DNA of 64,000 bases from Fibrobacter sp. UWR2 (GTDB lineage Bacteria; Fibrobacterota; Fibrobacteria; Fibrobacterales; Fibrobacteraceae). The notes under the pieces were generated by a model. The model searched no databases, was not told the origin of the DNA, and saw only the letters and a program-made list of their open reading frames with translations. Below are positions 27,280-58,997 of the stretch, one piece after another. Made by a program: the position numbers and the translations under genes. Position 1 is the first letter of the stretch, and every line of letters begins with the position of its first letter. The DNA is taken from contig NZ_MWQE01000010.1 of the NCBI RefSeq assembly GCF_002210285.1, positions 62,001 to 126,000 of the forward strand, read 5' to 3'.

Positions 27280-29358
27280 TTATTGTTTATTTATGCACAG
27301 GGTTTTCATCCCGTATTCATTTACCAATCGAACAAAATAGACACCCGTAGGCAATCTCGAAAGGTCGACTACGCGGGCCGTACTCGAGAGAACCTTCCGG
27401 CCATCCACGCGGGCCACACTCACGCGGAATGCGACCGGGGAATAAATTTCAAGGCGAGATTCCCCCGCAACATAGCGCATGGATTCGCCATGCAGGGGCA
27501 TGGAAGCCACCAACGCATCCGTGCTGCTAGAGGATTCCACACTCGACGAACTTTCGGCCCCTTCGGACGAAGAGGATTCTGCGCTCGAGGAACTAGATTT
27601 TTCAGACGAGCTGGACTTAGCAGAACTGGAAGATACCGGAACGGACGAAGAACTTGACTTCGCAGAACTGCTGGAGGAAGGTTCATCCCCACCGGCAGGG
27701 ATGACGGTTCCAGACCAGCCCTTGTACGCCACGAGCGCATCCTTGAGCGGTTGGTTCACATCAGAAGAAGCATCATCAACAGAATTGTCGAAAGTCCACT
27801 TGAAATCGCCACCCTGCACACGGCCCGCATACCGGACAACGTTGTCCCTAGCCGTCGCGGCATCGTCCACCTTGTAGCTGTACATCACGGAATTGTCGGT
27901 ATCGAAGTTGTTGTAGGTGTTTGCGCCGTCATACGACTTGACCGTAGAGGGTACCTTCGTGTTGCGGCTATCCACGACATACGCATCGAAGTCTTCGGAG
28001 GTATTGATCCCCTGGCTTGCCGCCGTCGTTTCCACACCCTTTACCTTGTACGAGGTTGCACCATACGGAATGAACGTGTAGGAGCCTTCCATGTAATTGC
28101 CGTAAGCCTTGATGGTACCGCCCGCTTCCTTGCTGAAAGTGCCGTTGTTCGTCGGGTCGCGCTTGGTGCCGCTCGCATACACGTCCGTCCCCTGCATCGA
28201 AGTGAGCATCGGGTACTTGCAGTTGCGGAAGTAGTTGTTTTCCATAAACACCGAGGAACCAAGCGTGGAGCCCGCACCGTATTTGGCGTTGCCGTCGTAG
28301 TAGTTGTTGTACACGTGGGCGCTGTAGTAGCGCACACGCGGATGGCGGCTGTCAGAATGATCGTACCAGTTGTGGTGATAGGTAATGTAGTAGCCTTCGG
28401 TCGTACCTTCCTTGAGTCCGAGCAGGTTAGACTTGCCATTGTCCCAGAAGTGGTTGTAGCTGAACGTCACATACGTCGAAAGCTTGCAGTCGAGCGCGCC
28501 GTCACCCTTTTTCTGGTCGGCATCGGAACCCGCATCGCCATAGAAGAAGTCGCAGTTGTGCACCCACACGTACTGGTTGTTCTGCTGCAGGCCGATGTTG
28601 TCGCCCTCGTCGCTGTTCACGTTCATGATGCCGAGGTTGCGGATTTCCACGTTCTGCGCGTTCTTGACGCGGATTCCCCAGCCGTTCACGGTCGCGTCGG
28701 GCCCGACACCCTCCACCGTCACGTAGGAGGTTTCAGACTTGCCGAGGTCAATCACCATGTCGCCCTGCACAAGCGAATCCGAATCCGTCACGTTGCCGAC
28801 AAAGCGCAGGTCGAGCGGAGTCGTCTCGTAGCCCTTCTTGTAGCAGTTCAATATGCCCTGGAAACTCTTGCAAGTCGTCTTTGTCCCCTTGGAACTTGTA
28901 GCCACGTCCATCGTCACGGTATTCTTGGTGCTTTCGGTAATGTAGAGTACCACGGCGCCATCCTTGAGCGTGCCGTCAGCCTTGTACGCACCGGGAACGC
29001 GCCCATTGGAAAAAGCAAAACCGCTGCGGTCGTGCGCCTTCACCGAGAGCGTCTTCGTCGTAGCGGCAGCGCCCTCCTTGCCGCCCTTCACGCCAGCAAC
29101 CTTGAGCGTGTAGTCGCCCGCCTTGAGCCCCGGAACGTCTACGCGCCAGATGGAACCGTACTTGCGGACAAGCTGCGCATCGACCTTCACGTCGGTTTTT
29201 CCCGCACCGCTATAGTACACGTTGTAGCTGTCGGAGCCATCCGGGCTCCATTCCGCATAGGCAGATTCCAACCAGCCCCCTGCGGTCGACAGAGAAACCT
29301 CGGCATACGAGGCAACCGCCACGCCGAGCCCAAGAATCATCATCGAAGAAAATTTCAT
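27280..29358 (-). CDS. Secreted pectate lyase, family PL1
   Basis: Calcium-dependent pectate lyase. Signal peptide about 1-19, a beta-sandwich (about 20-110), then the parallel beta-helix (about 115-480) with the PL1 signatures VEGVGPDATVNGWGI, WVHNCDFFYGDAGSDADQKKGDGALD, FSYNHFWDNGKSNLLG and DHSDSRHPRVRY, where the last carries the conserved catalytic Arg region. A long poly-serine linker (SSSSAKSSSSS type, about 560-620) joins it to a C-terminal sorting-like domain (LPTGVYFVRLVNEYG). It is the window's second PL1 gene but differs in domain plan from 135-2807, using a Ser linker and sorting-like end rather than a basic tail. It is divergent from the barrel cassette at 29674 and its leader contains repeated GAATGTTC motifs. 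Confidence 0.93.
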   Translation of the reverse strand: MKFSSMMILGLGVAVASYAEVSLSTAGGWLESAYAEWSPDGSDSYNVYYSGAGKTDVKVDAQLVRKYGSIWRVDVPGLKAGDYTLKVAGVKGGKEGAAATTKTLSVKAHDRSGFAFSNGRVPGAYKADGTLKDGAVVLYITESTKNTVTMDVATSSKGTKTTCKSFQGILNCYKKGYETTPLDLRFVGNVTDSDSLVQGDMVIDLGKSETSYVTVEGVGPDATVNGWGIRVKNAQNVEIRNLGIMNVNSDEGDNIGLQQNNQYVWVHNCDFFYGDAGSDADQKKGDGALDCKLSTYVTFSYNHFWDNGKSNLLGLKEGTTEGYYITYHHNWYDHSDSRHPRVRYYSAHVYNNYYDGNAKYGAGSTLGSSVFMENNYFRNCKYPMLTSMQGTDVYASGTKRDPTNNGTFSKEAGGTIKAYGNYMEGSYTFIPYGATSYKVKGVETTAASQGINTSEDFDAYVVDSRNTKVPSTVKSYDGANTYNNFDTDNSVMYSYKVDDAATARDNVVRYAGRVQGGDFKWTFDNSVDDASSDVNQPLKDALVAYKGWSGTVIPAGGDEPSSSSSAKSSSSSVPVSSSSAKSSSSEKSSSSSAESSSSEGAESSSSVESSSSTDALVASMPLHGESMRYVAGESRLEIYSPVAFRVSVARVDGRKVLSSTARVVDLSRLPTGVYFVRLVNEYGMKTLCINKQ

Positions 29359-29673: not shown

Positions 29674-30879
29674 ATGATGAAGCCAAAAATACTATTGACA
29701 ATGTTGTCCCTATTTTTTGCAACAACGTTTGCAGAAAGCCCGTCCGACACAGCCAATTTCAACGTTCTCCACGGAGCCGCCTACTACAATGCGGTGCTGA
29801 CCCCGAGCGAAGCGCCCTCCGTACACAGGAACATCTACACCCCGTACCTCATGTACGGCAGCAACCTTGTCGCCCTCGGCCCATCGAACGCCTACGGTAT
29901 CGCCAGCTACACATCCAACAACCAGACTTCTTTCCTTGCCTATCTCAACAACATGGCTATGCTCGGCATCGCCACAAAGTCTTTCGGTTTCAGCATCGCT
30001 TTCGACATCGACGAAAAATTGAACTTCTTTAAGGAAAAGGACGCCTACCACAAAGAAGAAACTACCGAAATTCATGGTCGCGCCAACAACCTTACGCTCC
30101 GCCTTGCCTTCCCCATGCAGTCCATCGACTTCCTGGCGACCTTGAGATACTACCAGTCAAACGATTCCCTCGCCATGGTCGACTACGCGGACAGCGAAGG
30201 CAAGATCGACTACGACTACCATAGGCTAGCCCACGACATTTACGGCGCAATTACATTCACGAACAGGCCCTCCGCCAAGAACTTCTCCTGGAGAACCGGA
30301 GGAAGCCTTGGCCGTGAATTCTGGTGGAAGGATTCCACCCTGAAAAGCACCATCGACCCTGACGACAATTACAAGCACACCTCCGAAAGAGACGACAGCT
30401 ACTTCTACGCAAGCCTTTTCTACAACTTCGGCTACATCGTCCTGAAATCCGGGAACGCCCGCGTGCACGTAGGCAACAACGCGAGCCTCAACGCCTACAT
30501 CTTCGACAGAGTCGAAGACAAGGACAATCACCGCAAGGATGCCTACATGCGCGGCACCCTCACCCTCACCCCCCACCTTCTCGCCGAATACGTCTTGAAC
30601 GAGAACTGGGTAATCTGGGCCAGCGCGGATTACAGCTGGAGCAGCAACGCCTATCGCGAGGAGTACATCGAGCTCTACAAGACCGAAGACGAGACCAAGA
30701 ACTACTTTACGCGTTTTTCGACAAAGAGCGGCAGAGTCTACACGACTACGGGCGTGCTTTTCAGATACAAACACCTGACGCTTGAAACCTCTATCATGTC
30801 CGGTTTTTACAACAATCCCTTCAGAGGTTTCACCGGCAACACCATACTATTCGACTTCTCCGGAATCGTAACATTCTAA
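29674..30879 (+). CDS. Outer-membrane beta-barrel protein of unknown function (paralogue of 31458-32828)
   Basis: A signal peptide (about 1-20, LFFATTFAES) is followed by about 380 residues of amphipathic strands ending in aromatic VTF, a BAM-type C-terminus. It is clearly related to the product of 31458-32828: both contain a GS-x-V-x(4)-PS/TSA segment near the N-terminus, a rNxFW/FSWrtG strand in the middle, and FYNNPFRGF near the C-terminus. The ATG at 29677 could also be the start (GGAACA precedes both). First gene of a four-gene plus-strand cassette; the Ser-rich lipoprotein gene begins 14 bases later. No known porin family was recognised. Confidence 0.7.
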   Translation: MMKPKILLTMLSLFFATTFAESPSDTANFNVLHGAAYYNAVLTPSEAPSVHRNIYTPYLMYGSNLVALGPSNAYGIASYTSNNQTSFLAYLNNMAMLGIATKSFGFSIAFDIDEKLNFFKEKDAYHKEETTEIHGRANNLTLRLAFPMQSIDFLATLRYYQSNDSLAMVDYADSEGKIDYDYHRLAHDIYGAITFTNRPSAKNFSWRTGGSLGREFWWKDSTLKSTIDPDDNYKHTSERDDSYFYASLFYNFGYIVLKSGNARVHVGNNASLNAYIFDRVEDKDNHRKDAYMRGTLTLTPHLLAEYVLNENWVIWASADYSWSSNAYREEYIELYKTEDETKNYFTRFSTKSGRVYTTTGVLFRYKHLTLETSIMSGFYNNPFRGFTGNTILFDFSGIVTF

Positions 30880-30893
30880 CTGAGAGGAAAACT

Positions 30894-31400
30894 ATGAAAA
30901 AGACAATCTTTTTTGCATTGTACCTGGTTTTCGCCCTTATCGTAGCGTGCTCCACCGATTCCACCATCAACGGTCCGAGCAATCTCAACACCCCGCACAA
31001 TAAGACGTACGCGACGAACTCCAGCAGTTCCAAGAAGTCTTCGAGCAGCACGGAATCTTCCAGTTCCGTCAGTTCGTCTAGTGCAAAGTCCTCTTCTAGC
31101 GAAGAAGAAGACGAATCCAGCAGTTCGGAGGAGTCCAGTTCGTCCAGCGTTTCTAGTTCTTCTACGGAATCGAGTTCTTCCAGCGATGGGGATTCTTCCA
31201 GCAGCGCCGAAGACTCGGATTCTTCATCTTCCAGCGATGAGGATTCCTCCAGCAGCGCCGAAGACCCGGACTCTTCATCTTCCAGCGATGAGGATTCCTC
31301 CAGCAGTGCCGAGGACCCGGACTCTTCATCTTCCAGCGATGAGGATTCCTCCAGCAGTGCTGAAGACCCGGATTCTTCATCCTCTAGCGAAGAGGATTAA
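30894..31400 (+). CDS. Serine/acidic repeat lipoprotein
   Basis: GAGAGGAAAACT precedes the ATG. Lipoprotein signal with ALIVAC (Cys19). From residue about 44 to the end it is almost only Ser, Asp and Glu, built in its C-terminal half from a 17-residue unit (DSSSSSDEDSSSSAEDP) encoded by 51-bp tandem repeats. There is no globular domain, so it may be a surface brush, spacer or cation-binding tether. Poly-Ser linkers are common within Fibrobacter enzymes, but here the linker is the whole mature protein. It sits between two paralogous barrel genes. Confidence 0.8.
   Translation: MKKTIFFALYLVFALIVACSTDSTINGPSNLNTPHNKTYATNSSSSKKSSSSTESSSSVSSSSAKSSSSEEEDESSSSEESSSSSVSSSSTESSSSSDGDSSSSAEDSDSSSSSDEDSSSSAEDPDSSSSSDEDSSSSAEDPDSSSSSDEDSSSSAEDPDSSSSSEED
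31218..31370 (+). repeat. Three tandem 51-bp repeats in the Ser-rich lipoprotein gene
   Basis: Units begin at 31218, 31269 and 31320, with a partial fourth at 31371 running into the stop. They are nearly identical at the DNA level (a few substitutions), in frame, and could expand or shrink by slippage or recombination without frameshift. Confidence 0.9.
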
Positions 31401-31457
31401 CCCAAAAGTTTTAAAGTCAAGATAAAAGTTTAAAGAATAACAACAAAAGGATACAGA

Positions 31458-32828
31458 ATGAAGATAAAACTGATAACCCTGACTGCAGCGGCAGCGCTGA
31501 CTGTCGCCATGGCCCAGGAAAACAGCGACAATGTGGGTCTCGCATCCACCGACAACGCTCCCGCGACCGAACAAGCGCCGGAGCCGGCGCCGGCGCCGGC
31601 TCCCGCTCCTGCTCCGCAAGTAACACCAGCACCTGCCGCACCAGCTCCCCAGGCGGCCACCACGGCGGCAACCGATACCGCAACCAAGAAGCCCACTGCG
31701 CTTCACGGTATCTCGTACAACAACGTTGGCAACACGGCCGCAGAATCGACCGTCGCCGACAACCTGAACAAGCCCTACAAGATGGCCGGTTCCAAGTTCG
31801 TCTATATCGAACCCACCAGCGCATTCAGTGCCGTGGCCTTCGGAGACCAGAGCACAAAGTTTATCTCCTTTGAAATGTCGAACAACCTCGGGCTTGCAAC
31901 CTTCGGTATCGCAAACAGGGGATTCGGCGCATCCATCAGCTACGCTCTCGGAAAGGAAATCACCTTTACCAAGAGCCGTGATGCCTACGAACAGACCACC
32001 GAAGACGAATACACCGTCTCTGCCGGTGACATCGTCCGCGCCAGGTTCGCCCTCCCTCTGGGAGCATTTGACCTGAACGCAACCCTCTTCTGGCTCACCT
32101 ACCAGAACGAGACCTCCACTTCTGAAGAGTACAAGGATTCCGACGACAAGACAACGACTGACGTCGAAAACGACTTCTGGGATCTCGGCGGAAAGGTTTC
32201 CGTGAGCAACGACCCCTCGGCAAGGAACATCTTCTGGAATGCGGGCGTAACCTTCACTCGTCACGAGAACTCCTACGAAAGGGAACACAAGGCAGGCTCT
32301 ACGACTTCCAAGACCGAGACCTCGGGCATGGACGCACATATCTATATCCAGCCCGAATTCAACATCGGCGGAACAATCCTCAAGGGTAACAGGGCACGAG
32401 TCCTGCTCGGCCTCAACACCCGCGCCCCGCTCAAGTTCTATGACGAATTCGATGACGACACCCGCAAGAACAAGGACGACTTCTTCACGATGGGCGTCTA
32501 CGCCGTGCCGAACATCTTTGCCGAAATCAAGCTCGGCAACTGCTGGCATATCTATGGCGGCGCTGACTACACCTGGGCAGTGTTCACCATGGAAAGCGAA
32601 GAATACATCACGGACTACAACGACGAAATCGACATCGTGAAGAACAACATCACAAGAATCCGCTCTCTTACCGGTGCAACGACAGTCAATCTCGGAGCCC
32701 GCTTCTACTACAACAACTTCGCGCTGGAAGCTTCCGTCGAGAACACGTTCTACAACAATCCCTTCCGTGGCTTCGCCGACGGCAACAACAACATCCTCGC
32801 CAACTTCGGCGGATTCATCTACTTCTAA
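31458..32828 (+). CDS. Outer-membrane beta-barrel protein with Pro/Ala-rich N-terminus (paralogue of 29674-30879)
   Basis: Signal peptide about 1-19, then a Pro/Ala linker (PEPAPAPAPAPAP, about 41-55, encoded by a GC-rich simple repeat), then a barrel region to the C-terminal Phe (GGFIYF). It is homologous to the first barrel of the cassette and shares FYNNPFRGF. The Pro/Ala linker could span peptidoglycan or reach a periplasmic partner. AAGGATACAG precedes the ATG. A small lipoprotein gene follows after 15 bases. Confidence 0.7.
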   Translation: MKIKLITLTAAAALTVAMAQENSDNVGLASTDNAPATEQAPEPAPAPAPAPAPQVTPAPAAPAPQAATTAATDTATKKPTALHGISYNNVGNTAAESTVADNLNKPYKMAGSKFVYIEPTSAFSAVAFGDQSTKFISFEMSNNLGLATFGIANRGFGASISYALGKEITFTKSRDAYEQTTEDEYTVSAGDIVRARFALPLGAFDLNATLFWLTYQNETSTSEEYKDSDDKTTTDVENDFWDLGGKVSVSNDPSARNIFWNAGVTFTRHENSYEREHKAGSTTSKTETSGMDAHIYIQPEFNIGGTILKGNRARVLLGLNTRAPLKFYDEFDDDTRKNKDDFFTMGVYAVPNIFAEIKLGNCWHIYGGADYTWAVFTMESEEYITDYNDEIDIVKNNITRIRSLTGATTVNLGARFYYNNFALEASVENTFYNNPFRGFADGNNNILANFGGFIYF

Positions 32829-32843
32829 TCGGGAGGCACTATC

Positions 32844-33077
32844 ATGAAAAAAATTATCGCTATTCTCTTCTCTTCCATGATGTTCGCCGCCCTCACCGCG
32901 TGCTCCGCGGGAGAAGACAGTTCCATCTCATCCCCACGTTCGGGATCCTTCATCGAAAGTCTCTGCGCCATATACACGACAGAGAAGAATACTTCGTACG
33001 GCGTCGTCTATTCCTGCAAGGACAACGGCAAGCAGTACATCTGCTCTGCTACCGAATGCGAGCCGTATACCGACTAA
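32844..33077 (+). CDS. Small cysteine-containing lipoprotein
   Basis: 77 residues. GGAGG eight bases before the ATG. The lipoprotein signal ends LTAC (Cys20); the short mature part has four more cysteines (SLCAIY, YSCKD, YICSA, TECEP), possibly two disulfides. No family recognised. It is the last gene of the cassette barrel, Ser-rich lipoprotein, barrel, small lipoprotein, and is followed by a terminator. Confidence 0.75.
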   Translation: MKKIIAILFSSMMFAALTACSAGEDSSISSPRSGSFIESLCAIYTTEKNTSYGVVYSCKDNGKQYICSATECEPYTD

Positions 33078-33104
33078 GTAATTCTGAACGTATCCTTTTT
33101 AGCA

Positions 33105-33136
33105 AGGCGCGCCCTTTTGTGGGGTGCGTCTTTTGC
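33105..33136. terminator. Bidirectional terminator after the envelope cassette
   Basis: Stem GCGCGCCC (33107-33114) with GGGTGCGT (33122-33129), including two G-T pairs, followed by CTTTTGC; the converging small membrane protein gene ends just beyond it. Confidence 0.65.
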
Positions 33137-56832: not shown

Positions 56833-57876
56833 TTATTCCGCGTCAGCGTCAATCCTCTCCAATTCTTTATTAATCAGGTCCAGGCATTCCTGAAGGATTC
56901 CATCGTACTTTTCCCGATAGAGATCAGTCGTCTCGGGCGTTCCGTCCGCACATGTCCTGGTCTTCGCCACATAGCCGTTAAACCAGTGATCGGACATGCT
57001 CACACTTACGTGTTCTGTATCATAATCATAATTCGCCCAATAATAGGGGAACAGATTCCCTCTCAAGGTATTCTTTTCTCGATCAACGATACTATCCAGG
57101 AACACCTTTTTCGCTTCGGGCAAGGTATCGTTTTCATCAAGGACCTTCACAATCCTTTCGTACAGTTCCTTCTGCACATCGGCAAGGACATCTACAAACA
57201 GGGCAAAGGTATCCTGCGGGCAGTTCGTGACCAGGTCTTCTGGCTCCGCGCTAGAACTGGAACTTTCCGCAACGGAACTGGAACTATGCGTCTCGTAGTA
57301 TTCCTTTTCTGTGACGTAGGCGATTCCATTGTCTTGCGCATACAGCTTGTAATCCTTGCCATCGGAGCATTTAAGATACGGAACCGAATAATGGGGGCAA
57401 ACCTGGTACACGATACCATAAAGCGGCACCTCTTCCTGAATGGCGCCACACGAAAGCAGCTTTTTTTCCCACTTGTTCAGAATCTTTTCCGAGACCGTAG
57501 TGTCCTTTTTCAGGAACTCCTGTAAATCCATACACGAATAGTAAGGTTCCGAAGATACGGGGCAGCTTCCTACCACGGACAGGTATGTCGTGCAGGTTAC
57601 GGAGGTATCCCTAGCCAACCTAAGTTTTTCTTCACTCGACGAACTCAACTCCCCTACATCAGAGGAACTAGACAGGGCGACATCCGAAGAACTCGACTCG
57701 GGTACTACAGACGAACTTTCCGGTTCAGCACTGGAACTAGTCCCCGTAACATCCGAAGAAGATTCTGGATCAGGCGTATTATCCGGCCCCTGGGAATTCG
57801 AATCACCTCCACAACTCGCCCAAAAGAAGCCTGCGACTGTCAAGCAGCCTAAGCGAAAGAACCTGCGAATATTCAT
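56833..57876 (-). CDS. Lipoprotein of unknown function, downstream member of a paralogous pair
   Basis: AAAAGGAGAAAATC precedes the ATG. Lipoprotein signal ends FFWASC (Cys22). A Ser/Glu/Asp linker (about 25-85, SSSS clusters) leads to a domain with conserved cysteines (about 90-200: VTCTTY, GSCPV, YSCMDLQEFLKKDTTVSEKIL, LLSCGA, CPHY) and a second Ser linker, then a helical C-terminal domain (about 215-347: NCPQDTFALFVDVLADVQKELYERIVKVL, HWFNGYVAKTRTCADGTPETTD). Closely related in every segment to 57909-58997 (32 bases upstream), so they arose by tandem duplication. No known family recognised. Confidence 0.8.
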   Translation of the reverse strand: MNIRRFFRLGCLTVAGFFWASCGGDSNSQGPDNTPDPESSSDVTGTSSSAEPESSSVVPESSSSDVALSSSSDVGELSSSSEEKLRLARDTSVTCTTYLSVVGSCPVSSEPYYSCMDLQEFLKKDTTVSEKILNKWEKKLLSCGAIQEEVPLYGIVYQVCPHYSVPYLKCSDGKDYKLYAQDNGIAYVTEKEYYETHSSSSVAESSSSSAEPEDLVTNCPQDTFALFVDVLADVQKELYERIVKVLDENDTLPEAKKVFLDSIVDREKNTLRGNLFPYYWANYDYDTEHVSVSMSDHWFNGYVAKTRTCADGTPETTDLYREKYDGILQECLDLINKELERIDADAE

Positions 57877-57908: not shown

Positions 57909-58997
57909 TTACTTTACCTTGGCCAGCTGGCTATTCAGCAAGTCAAGAGCCTCCTCATAGATGGCGTCATACGACGCCTTGTATGATTCCGTGATTTCCG
58001 GAGTTCCGCCTGCACAGGTTTTCGTCTTGGCAATGTAGCCGTCAAACCAGTTTACAGAATATGCACCGTGGGTTCCGAGCTCACCAAGGACAACCTCTTC
58101 TATCCGGAGGTCACCTTCAAGGTATGGAGCAAAGTTGCCTTTCAGCTTCTTGTTCTCACGATCCAGGACACCTTCCAGATAAGTCTTTTGAGCTTCGCTG
58201 AGTTCCGTATTTTCTTCCAGGTTCTTCACGATTTTTTCGTACAGCGCGCCCTGCACATCGGCAAGGATATCGGCAAACAGCGAAAATTCATCATGCGGGC
58301 AGTTTTGAACTAGATCCTCCTGCACCGAGCTAGAACTTTCCACAGCAGAACTGGAACTTTCCGTTGCAGAACTGGAACTTATTCCATGGGCCGCATTGTA
58401 TTCCTCGATATTCTTGTAAACCAGGTCACCATCCACCTTGTAATCGGGATAGTAGACGCCATTGGAGCACTTCATTTCAACTTTAGTATAGGTGGGAGCA
58501 TTGGCACAAGGATCATAGAAAACGCCATAAACGGCCACAGGCATCGAAACCGCCCCGCACGACTCCAACTTTTCTTCCCAGGCCAGCAATACTTTTTCTG
58601 TTACGGACGTGTCCTTTTTCAGGAAGTCCTGCAATTCCATGCACGAATAACTGGGCAAAGACGCAGAAGTGTTTTTGCAAGTTGAATACGTGCTTTTTTC
58701 CTTTGCACAGGTTACAGAGGAATCGCTTGCCAAAATATATTGTTTAGCGCTAGAAGAACTCTCGATTTGATTACTCGAAGAACTTGTAGCATCCGACGAA
58801 GAAGACTCGTGCGCAACATCAGAAGATTCCGGTTCCGCGGAAGAACTAGTCTGTGGCTGTGTCACGGATGAACTTTCAGGTTCATCGCCGTCATCCGCTC
58901 CATTCGCTCCAGTAGAAGAATTCGAATCACCGCAACTCGCCCAAAAAAAGCCAGCAACGGACAAAAAACTCAAACGAAACAATCTACGGATATTCAT
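57909..58997 (-). CDS. Lipoprotein of unknown function, upstream member of a paralogous pair
   Basis: AGGAGG precedes the ATG. Same plan as the downstream gene: lipobox WASC (Cys22), Ser-rich linker (about 35-85), cysteine domain (VTCAKEKSTYSTC, YSCMELQDFLKKDTSVTEKVL, ESCGA), second Ser linker (SSSSATESSSSAVESSSS), C-terminal helical domain (NCPHDEFSLFADILADVQGALYEKIVKNL, NWFDGYIAKTKTCAGGTPEIT). Divergence between the copies is greatest in linkers. Surface-exposed cell envelope protein is likely; function unknown. Confidence 0.8.
   Translation of the reverse strand: MNIRRLFRLSFLSVAGFFWASCGDSNSSTGANGADDGDEPESSSVTQPQTSSSAEPESSDVAHESSSSDATSSSSNQIESSSSAKQYILASDSSVTCAKEKSTYSTCKNTSASLPSYSCMELQDFLKKDTSVTEKVLLAWEEKLESCGAVSMPVAVYGVFYDPCANAPTYTKVEMKCSNGVYYPDYKVDGDLVYKNIEEYNAAHGISSSSATESSSSAVESSSSVQEDLVQNCPHDEFSLFADILADVQGALYEKIVKNLEENTELSEAQKTYLEGVLDRENKKLKGNFAPYLEGDLRIEEVVLGELGTHGAYSVNWFDGYIAKTKTCAGGTPEITESYKASYDAIYEEALDLLNSQLAKVK

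Follow-up and report, generated by a model that had tools for sequence, protein, structure and literature searches.

The cassette at positions 29674–33077 of the window (the whole 64,000-nucleotide stretch of Fibrobacter sp. UWR2 DNA that was analysed) consists of a two-gene unit, a barrel gene followed by a small lipoprotein gene, that is present twice in diverged form. This pairing recurs across the family and, judged from sequence and gene order, has the look of a membrane complex of two parts that has yet to be described. The elements of the cassette are:

29674–30879, plus strand: B1, a PopA-like outer-membrane β-barrel, predicted to be plugged, of 401 aa with a signal peptide and a C-terminal Phe (ORF, paralogue alignment, model and PDB match).
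30805–30831, plus strand: B1 last-loop motif FYNNPFRGF, at a position equivalent to PopA loop 8.
30894–31400, plus strand: LP1, a small lipoprotein of 168 aa, with a motif beside the lipid-anchored Cys and then a Ser/Asp/Glu repeat tail.
30948–30977, plus strand: LP1 post-lipobox motif CSTDSTINGP (orthologue and profile comparison).
31176–31398, plus strand: 51-nt tandem repeat, 4.4 copies, encoding the Ser-rich tail of LP1.
31458–32828, plus strand: B2, a PopA-like outer-membrane β-barrel, predicted to be plugged, of 456 aa, paralogue of B1.
31572–31691, plus strand: Pro/Ala-rich extension near the B2 N terminus, located after the signal peptide and before the plug, predicted to be disordered in the model.
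32748–32774, plus strand: B2 last-loop motif FYNNPFRGF, at a position equivalent to PopA loop 8.
32844–33077, plus strand: LP2, a small lipoprotein of 77 aa, with a motif beside the lipid-anchored Cys and then a four-Cys mini-domain.
32901–32939, plus strand: LP2 post-lipobox motif CSAGEDSSISSPR (orthologue and profile comparison).
33102–33136, plus strand: terminator-like hairpin behind the cassette (−24.2 kcal/mol, z −4.07).

This layout agrees with an earlier note on the same DNA, which had described four plus-strand ORFs with a terminator behind them: the positions match, the gaps in B1–LP1–B2–LP2 are 14, 57 and 15 nt, and a strong hairpin lies 3′ of LP2, which a simple terminator scan left unflagged. 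The barrels, which the note had called homologous, can be aligned along 382 residues with 32% identity (E 1e-50), and this genome has no other member of their family. The note had also recognised no known family, and none of the four proteins scores above the cut-off of a Pfam or NCBIfam model; the same is true of Pfam for 65 barrel relatives. Its view of the two lipoproteins as unrelated has to be revised. Both ORFs start with a lipoprotein signal and lipobox (the pattern by which lipoproteins were called throughout) and, for all that LP1 is Ser-rich and LP2 Cys-rich, a motif next to the lipid-anchored Cys is common to LP1 (CSTDSTINGP) and LP2 (CSAGEDSSISSP). The two profiles match with a probability of 97.3% (E 1.7e-11), part of the score coming from the signal peptide. 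It is because LP1 and LP2 share this motif that the cassette can be read as one unit present twice. Elsewhere in the window, the divergent neighbour at 27280–29358 encodes a secreted protein that resembles pectate lyases and has a Ser-rich linker and a C-terminal extension, and 56833–57531 and 57909–58640 are adjacent minus-strand paralogues of 232 and 243 aa that start MDLQEFLKKDT and MELQDFLKKDT.

A gene-neighbourhood survey bears out the proposed partnership of lipoprotein and barrel. In an initial set of 80 neighbourhoods, 54 of 84 barrels have a lipoprotein 60 nt or less downstream, versus 11 of 453 control genes (Fisher p 3e-41, a value inflated by genome relatedness), and in an extended set one stands behind 73 of 161 barrels. 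For the 65 pairs that were measured, spacing is 9–22 nt. Eight genera have paired units, one of these genera belonging to a second family of the order, and the units lie at unrelated genomic sites with differing flanks and no other gene in common; some adjoin a gene that we take from its sequence to encode seryl-tRNA synthetase, together with other housekeeping genes, outside sugar-use clusters. Relatives of B2 were found in 104 of the 111 genomes of the family and 109 of the 168 of the phylum, with weak matches only beyond the order; the set includes many metagenome-assembled genomes, and related genomes make the counts non-independent. Together these data support the assignment of each lipoprotein to the barrel that precedes it. 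The earlier note held that its pairing would fail if barrel homologues lacked a lipoprotein neighbour in most genomes. Counted by genome, the pairing stands narrowly, at least one paired barrel being present in 54 of 100 and lone barrels only in 46; counted by barrel, it is the minority state (67 of 156 paired, 89 without a lipoprotein neighbour). Given those 89, not every member of the family needs a lipoprotein.

That so many barrels manage alone, and that a complex between the two proteins is something we infer, leaves some room for co-expression only, in which the lipoprotein is an independent small envelope protein whose gene stays with that of the barrel for reasons of dosage, without any binding between the two. 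We think this unlikely: each of the best 14 LP2-type matches in 80 genomes (E ≤ 7e-13) comes immediately after a barrel, the spacing is tight, nothing else is conserved nearby, and the gain and loss of the lipoprotein follow the barrel clades. On a barrel tree (152 rows; FastTree, unrooted), lone and paired labels require 12 changes, against a mean of 49.6 when shuffled, and the unpaired barrels fall mostly into discrete, separate clades. Lipoproteins overlooked behind lone barrels were looked for in 23 loci read by eye, most of which proved truly lone: at L049 a damaged start had hidden the pair, at L103 the lipoprotein lay at 45 nt, and in most of the others the frames contain none. Pairing in the upstream direction was rejected, as the ‘448-aa lipoprotein’ before one clade of lone barrels looks like a FAD/GidA-type enzyme.

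The tandem of two units is found in this genome and seven others, and G042 has an independent combination. As B1 and B2 belong to separate supported clades, the cassette did not arise by recent duplication; the tandem is either old or was brought together. Genome G044 has a B1-type unit that breaks off within the Ser-repeat lipoprotein at a contig end (L117) and a B2-type unit that opens another contig (L045); here the tandem is probably intact and was split by the assembly at the repeat.

Modelling indicates that both barrels resemble PopA (Bd0427), a plugged, oligomeric, lipid-trapping outer-membrane protein of Bdellovibrio (PMC12228718; PDB 9gf0, 9ga1). Mature B1 was modelled with a 55-row alignment (pLDDT 91, pTM 0.84). 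For B2, the model is of a read-through chain that includes LP2, an artificial single-chain device in which the intervening TAA is read as Gly; both parts folded, the barrel mostly with pLDDT >90 (pTM 0.68). Foldseek ranks PopA first in the PDB for the B2 model (E 4.1e-7, TM 0.58 normalised to PopA length, with 0.33 for the next fold) and for that of B1 (E 8.3e-6, TM 0.51, with autotransporter and LptD barrels close in E-value), although the superpositions are loose, at an rmsd of ~9 Å. PopA is also described as having an N-terminal plug with three small helices, a short inner edge, a tall outer wall and a hydrophobic loop 8 (PMC12228718). The B1 model has counterparts of the first three: three short helices (15–20, 30–35 and 37–40) precede the first barrel strand, and strand lengths of 7–10 residues (first seven), 16–25 (eight in the middle) and 9–10 (last two) predict an inner edge that is short and an outer wall that is tall. 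The strand count in the models is 16–18, varying with how strands near the plug are counted (16 in the PopA superfamily). Where PopA has its hydrophobic loop 8, between the last two strands, B1 and B2 carry FYNNPFRGF, a motif that is replaced in several subfamilies and lies in a region of low confidence in the B1 model. The Pro/Ala-rich extension of B2 is common in the barrel family and absent from B1. B1 and B2 also differ from PopA: a PDB sequence search with the barrel profile returned low-complexity chance matches only and no PopA, so that sequence relation is undetectable; and each gene is trailed by a dedicated small lipoprotein, of which the consulted parts of PMC12228718 make no mention for PopA.

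Fibrobacter FSU_2404 and FSU_0230 are listed as PopA superfamily members (PMC12228718), and our genome carries a second kind of barrel at L206:11047-12339 (contig C3:108046-109338), behind OmpA/TPR/ExbB/ExbD/TonB-like genes, that is probably the counterpart of F. succinogenes FSU_2404, an identity drawn from gene order and protein sizes only. This type is present in 40 of the 41 family genomes searched. It has a last-loop motif at the equivalent place (LFRNPFQG versus FYNNPFRG in B2), but it is housed in a TonB/ExbD cluster and the B1/B2 profile does not retrieve it, which makes it a separate family. Kinship was also sought by profile comparison and not upheld: hhalign aligned 20 columns, the last-loop motif alone, at a non-significant E of 0.08. 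Because the superpositions are loose and only this motif is shared, non-significantly, with the FSU_2404 type, we call B1 and B2 PopA-like by fold and treat membership of the PopA superfamily as unproven. A 126-aa lipoprotein-like protein (MRYTILLTLALFLLGCSERTERIEN...) is encoded at L206:12425-12805, 85 nt behind the FSU_2404-type barrel.

The models bear on what the lipoprotein might do. Both barrels are predicted to be plugged by their own N-terminal helices, which makes a luminal plug not the likeliest role for it. FadL and TodX appear at lower ranks of the Foldseek lists for both models, and pectate-lyase-like and other secreted-enzyme genes lie nearby, as would suit an ordinary FadL- or porin-like substrate channel whose lipoprotein binds substrate or gates the surface, a miniature SusC/SusD-type pair for fibre breakdown. 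We regard this as very unlikely, given partners of 23–60 aa, too small for a SusD-like domain, and the location of the units, outside sugar-use clusters, next to the presumed seryl-tRNA synthetase and further housekeeping genes. No SusC/SusD-type domain (TonB-dependent receptor or SusD-like) was matched at cut-off in Pfam or NCBIfam in any of the four proteins. PopA, the nearest solved fold, also has a barrel closed by its plug (PMC12228718), another point against this reading.

Comparison of the partner lipoproteins locates their constant part in the stretch beside the lipid anchor; the remainder is acidic, Ser-rich, Cys-rich or almost missing. Directly after the lipobox, LP2 orthologues follow C-S/T-A/G-x-x-D/N-S-S/T-I-S/T-S/G-P-R and LP1 orthologues C-S/T-x-D/E-x-T/I/A-I-x-S/G-P. 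The start of the mature protein matches C[ST][AGSNTH][DEKA] in 61 of 67 partners versus 2 of the 59 lipoproteins from the same DNA that are not partners. A fuller post-lipobox motif is present in 22 of the 67, by a pattern that replaced an initial, too strict one (6 matches), controls having been counted with the initial pattern only. Mature partners are 23–203 residues long, the shortest (23 aa) holding almost nothing beyond the motif; because they can be so short, we consider the anchor-proximal motif the probable active part of the lipoprotein. In the read-through model, the last 40 residues of LP2 are confidently predicted (pLDDT ~90) to form a mini-domain with four cysteines. A similar mini-domain (C..Y...C.D...Y.C....C) recurs in the partners at L053, L057, L052, L055 and L075, and weak matches from the LP2-type search suggest that it may also occur in longer unrelated ORFs.

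The tails are variable and strongly acidic (median net charge −11; zero or below in 64 of 67) and often Ser- or Cys-rich, as exposed segments would be, and a Ser at +2 together with acidic residues resembles the surface-export signal of Bacteroidota. The barrel could thus be a route or receptor for its lipoprotein, with the tail threaded through it or displayed at the surface and the Ser- or Cys-rich part working outside the cell. Precedents would be surface-lipoprotein systems and RcsF with its porins. The lipoprotein RcsF similarly combines a disordered segment with a barrel partner, but its signalling domain is folded and its barrels are general porins, whereas partners of the LP type can be as small as 23 aa and each has its own barrel. 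Several partners are nearly tail-less (mature length 23–30 aa) and the barrel models are occupied by their own N-terminus; both tell against a surface route, which we judge improbable.

The reading that we prefer makes the lipoprotein a dedicated lipopeptide subunit of its PopA-like barrel, acting as LptM does on LptD. We give this about as much credence as doubt; the pairing is well supported, and the binding and the mechanism are what we infer from it. LptM is a short lipoprotein that in most bacteria is conserved only next to the acylated Cys, has a poorly conserved tail and binds the LptD barrel (PMC10567701). LP1 and LP2 share with LptM (YifL) the small size, the outer-membrane lipoprotein character, the conserved segment beside the acylated Cys, the poorly conserved tail and, if our reading holds, service to a barrel. 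They differ from it in being encoded directly behind their own barrel, a protein of ~380–450 aa that lacks a Pfam match and is not LptD, and the LptM segment PF13627 is absent from the Pfam matches of LP1 and LP2 at E ≤ 1. Each unit would then consist of an internally plugged PopA-like outer-membrane barrel and its own small outer-membrane lipoprotein, encoded directly downstream. As conservation is confined to a dozen residues at the acyl anchor and the gene travels with the barrel, a small subunit on the periplasmic face is suggested: the 10–13 conserved residues would engage the barrel at the periplasmic leaflet, possibly setting the acyl chains against its lipid-facing edge, while the acidic, Ser-rich or Cys-rich tail would be a free extension. 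Our first choice of role is that the lipoprotein probably aids assembly or stability of the barrel, as LptM does for LptD.

A bolder extension, attractive but decidedly unlikely, would have the acyl anchor serve a lipid-trapping barrel as a lipid that is encoded in the genes. The chains of the lipopeptide would fill or seal the hydrophobic, periplasm-open central chamber of a PopA-like oligomer, held by the C-S/T-x-D-S-T-I-x-S/G-P segment beneath that chamber; if so, clades that lost the lipoprotein would have reverted to a chamber filled with ordinary phospholipid.

PopA-type barrels, whose function is unclear, have been recognised only since 2025. A barrel family of PopA-like fold with a co-inherited lipoprotein, in a major fibre-degrading gut lineage, offers a handle on the binding partners and assembly of such barrels, and a lipoprotein acting as we propose would extend the LptM kind of small-lipoprotein subunit to a second sort of barrel.
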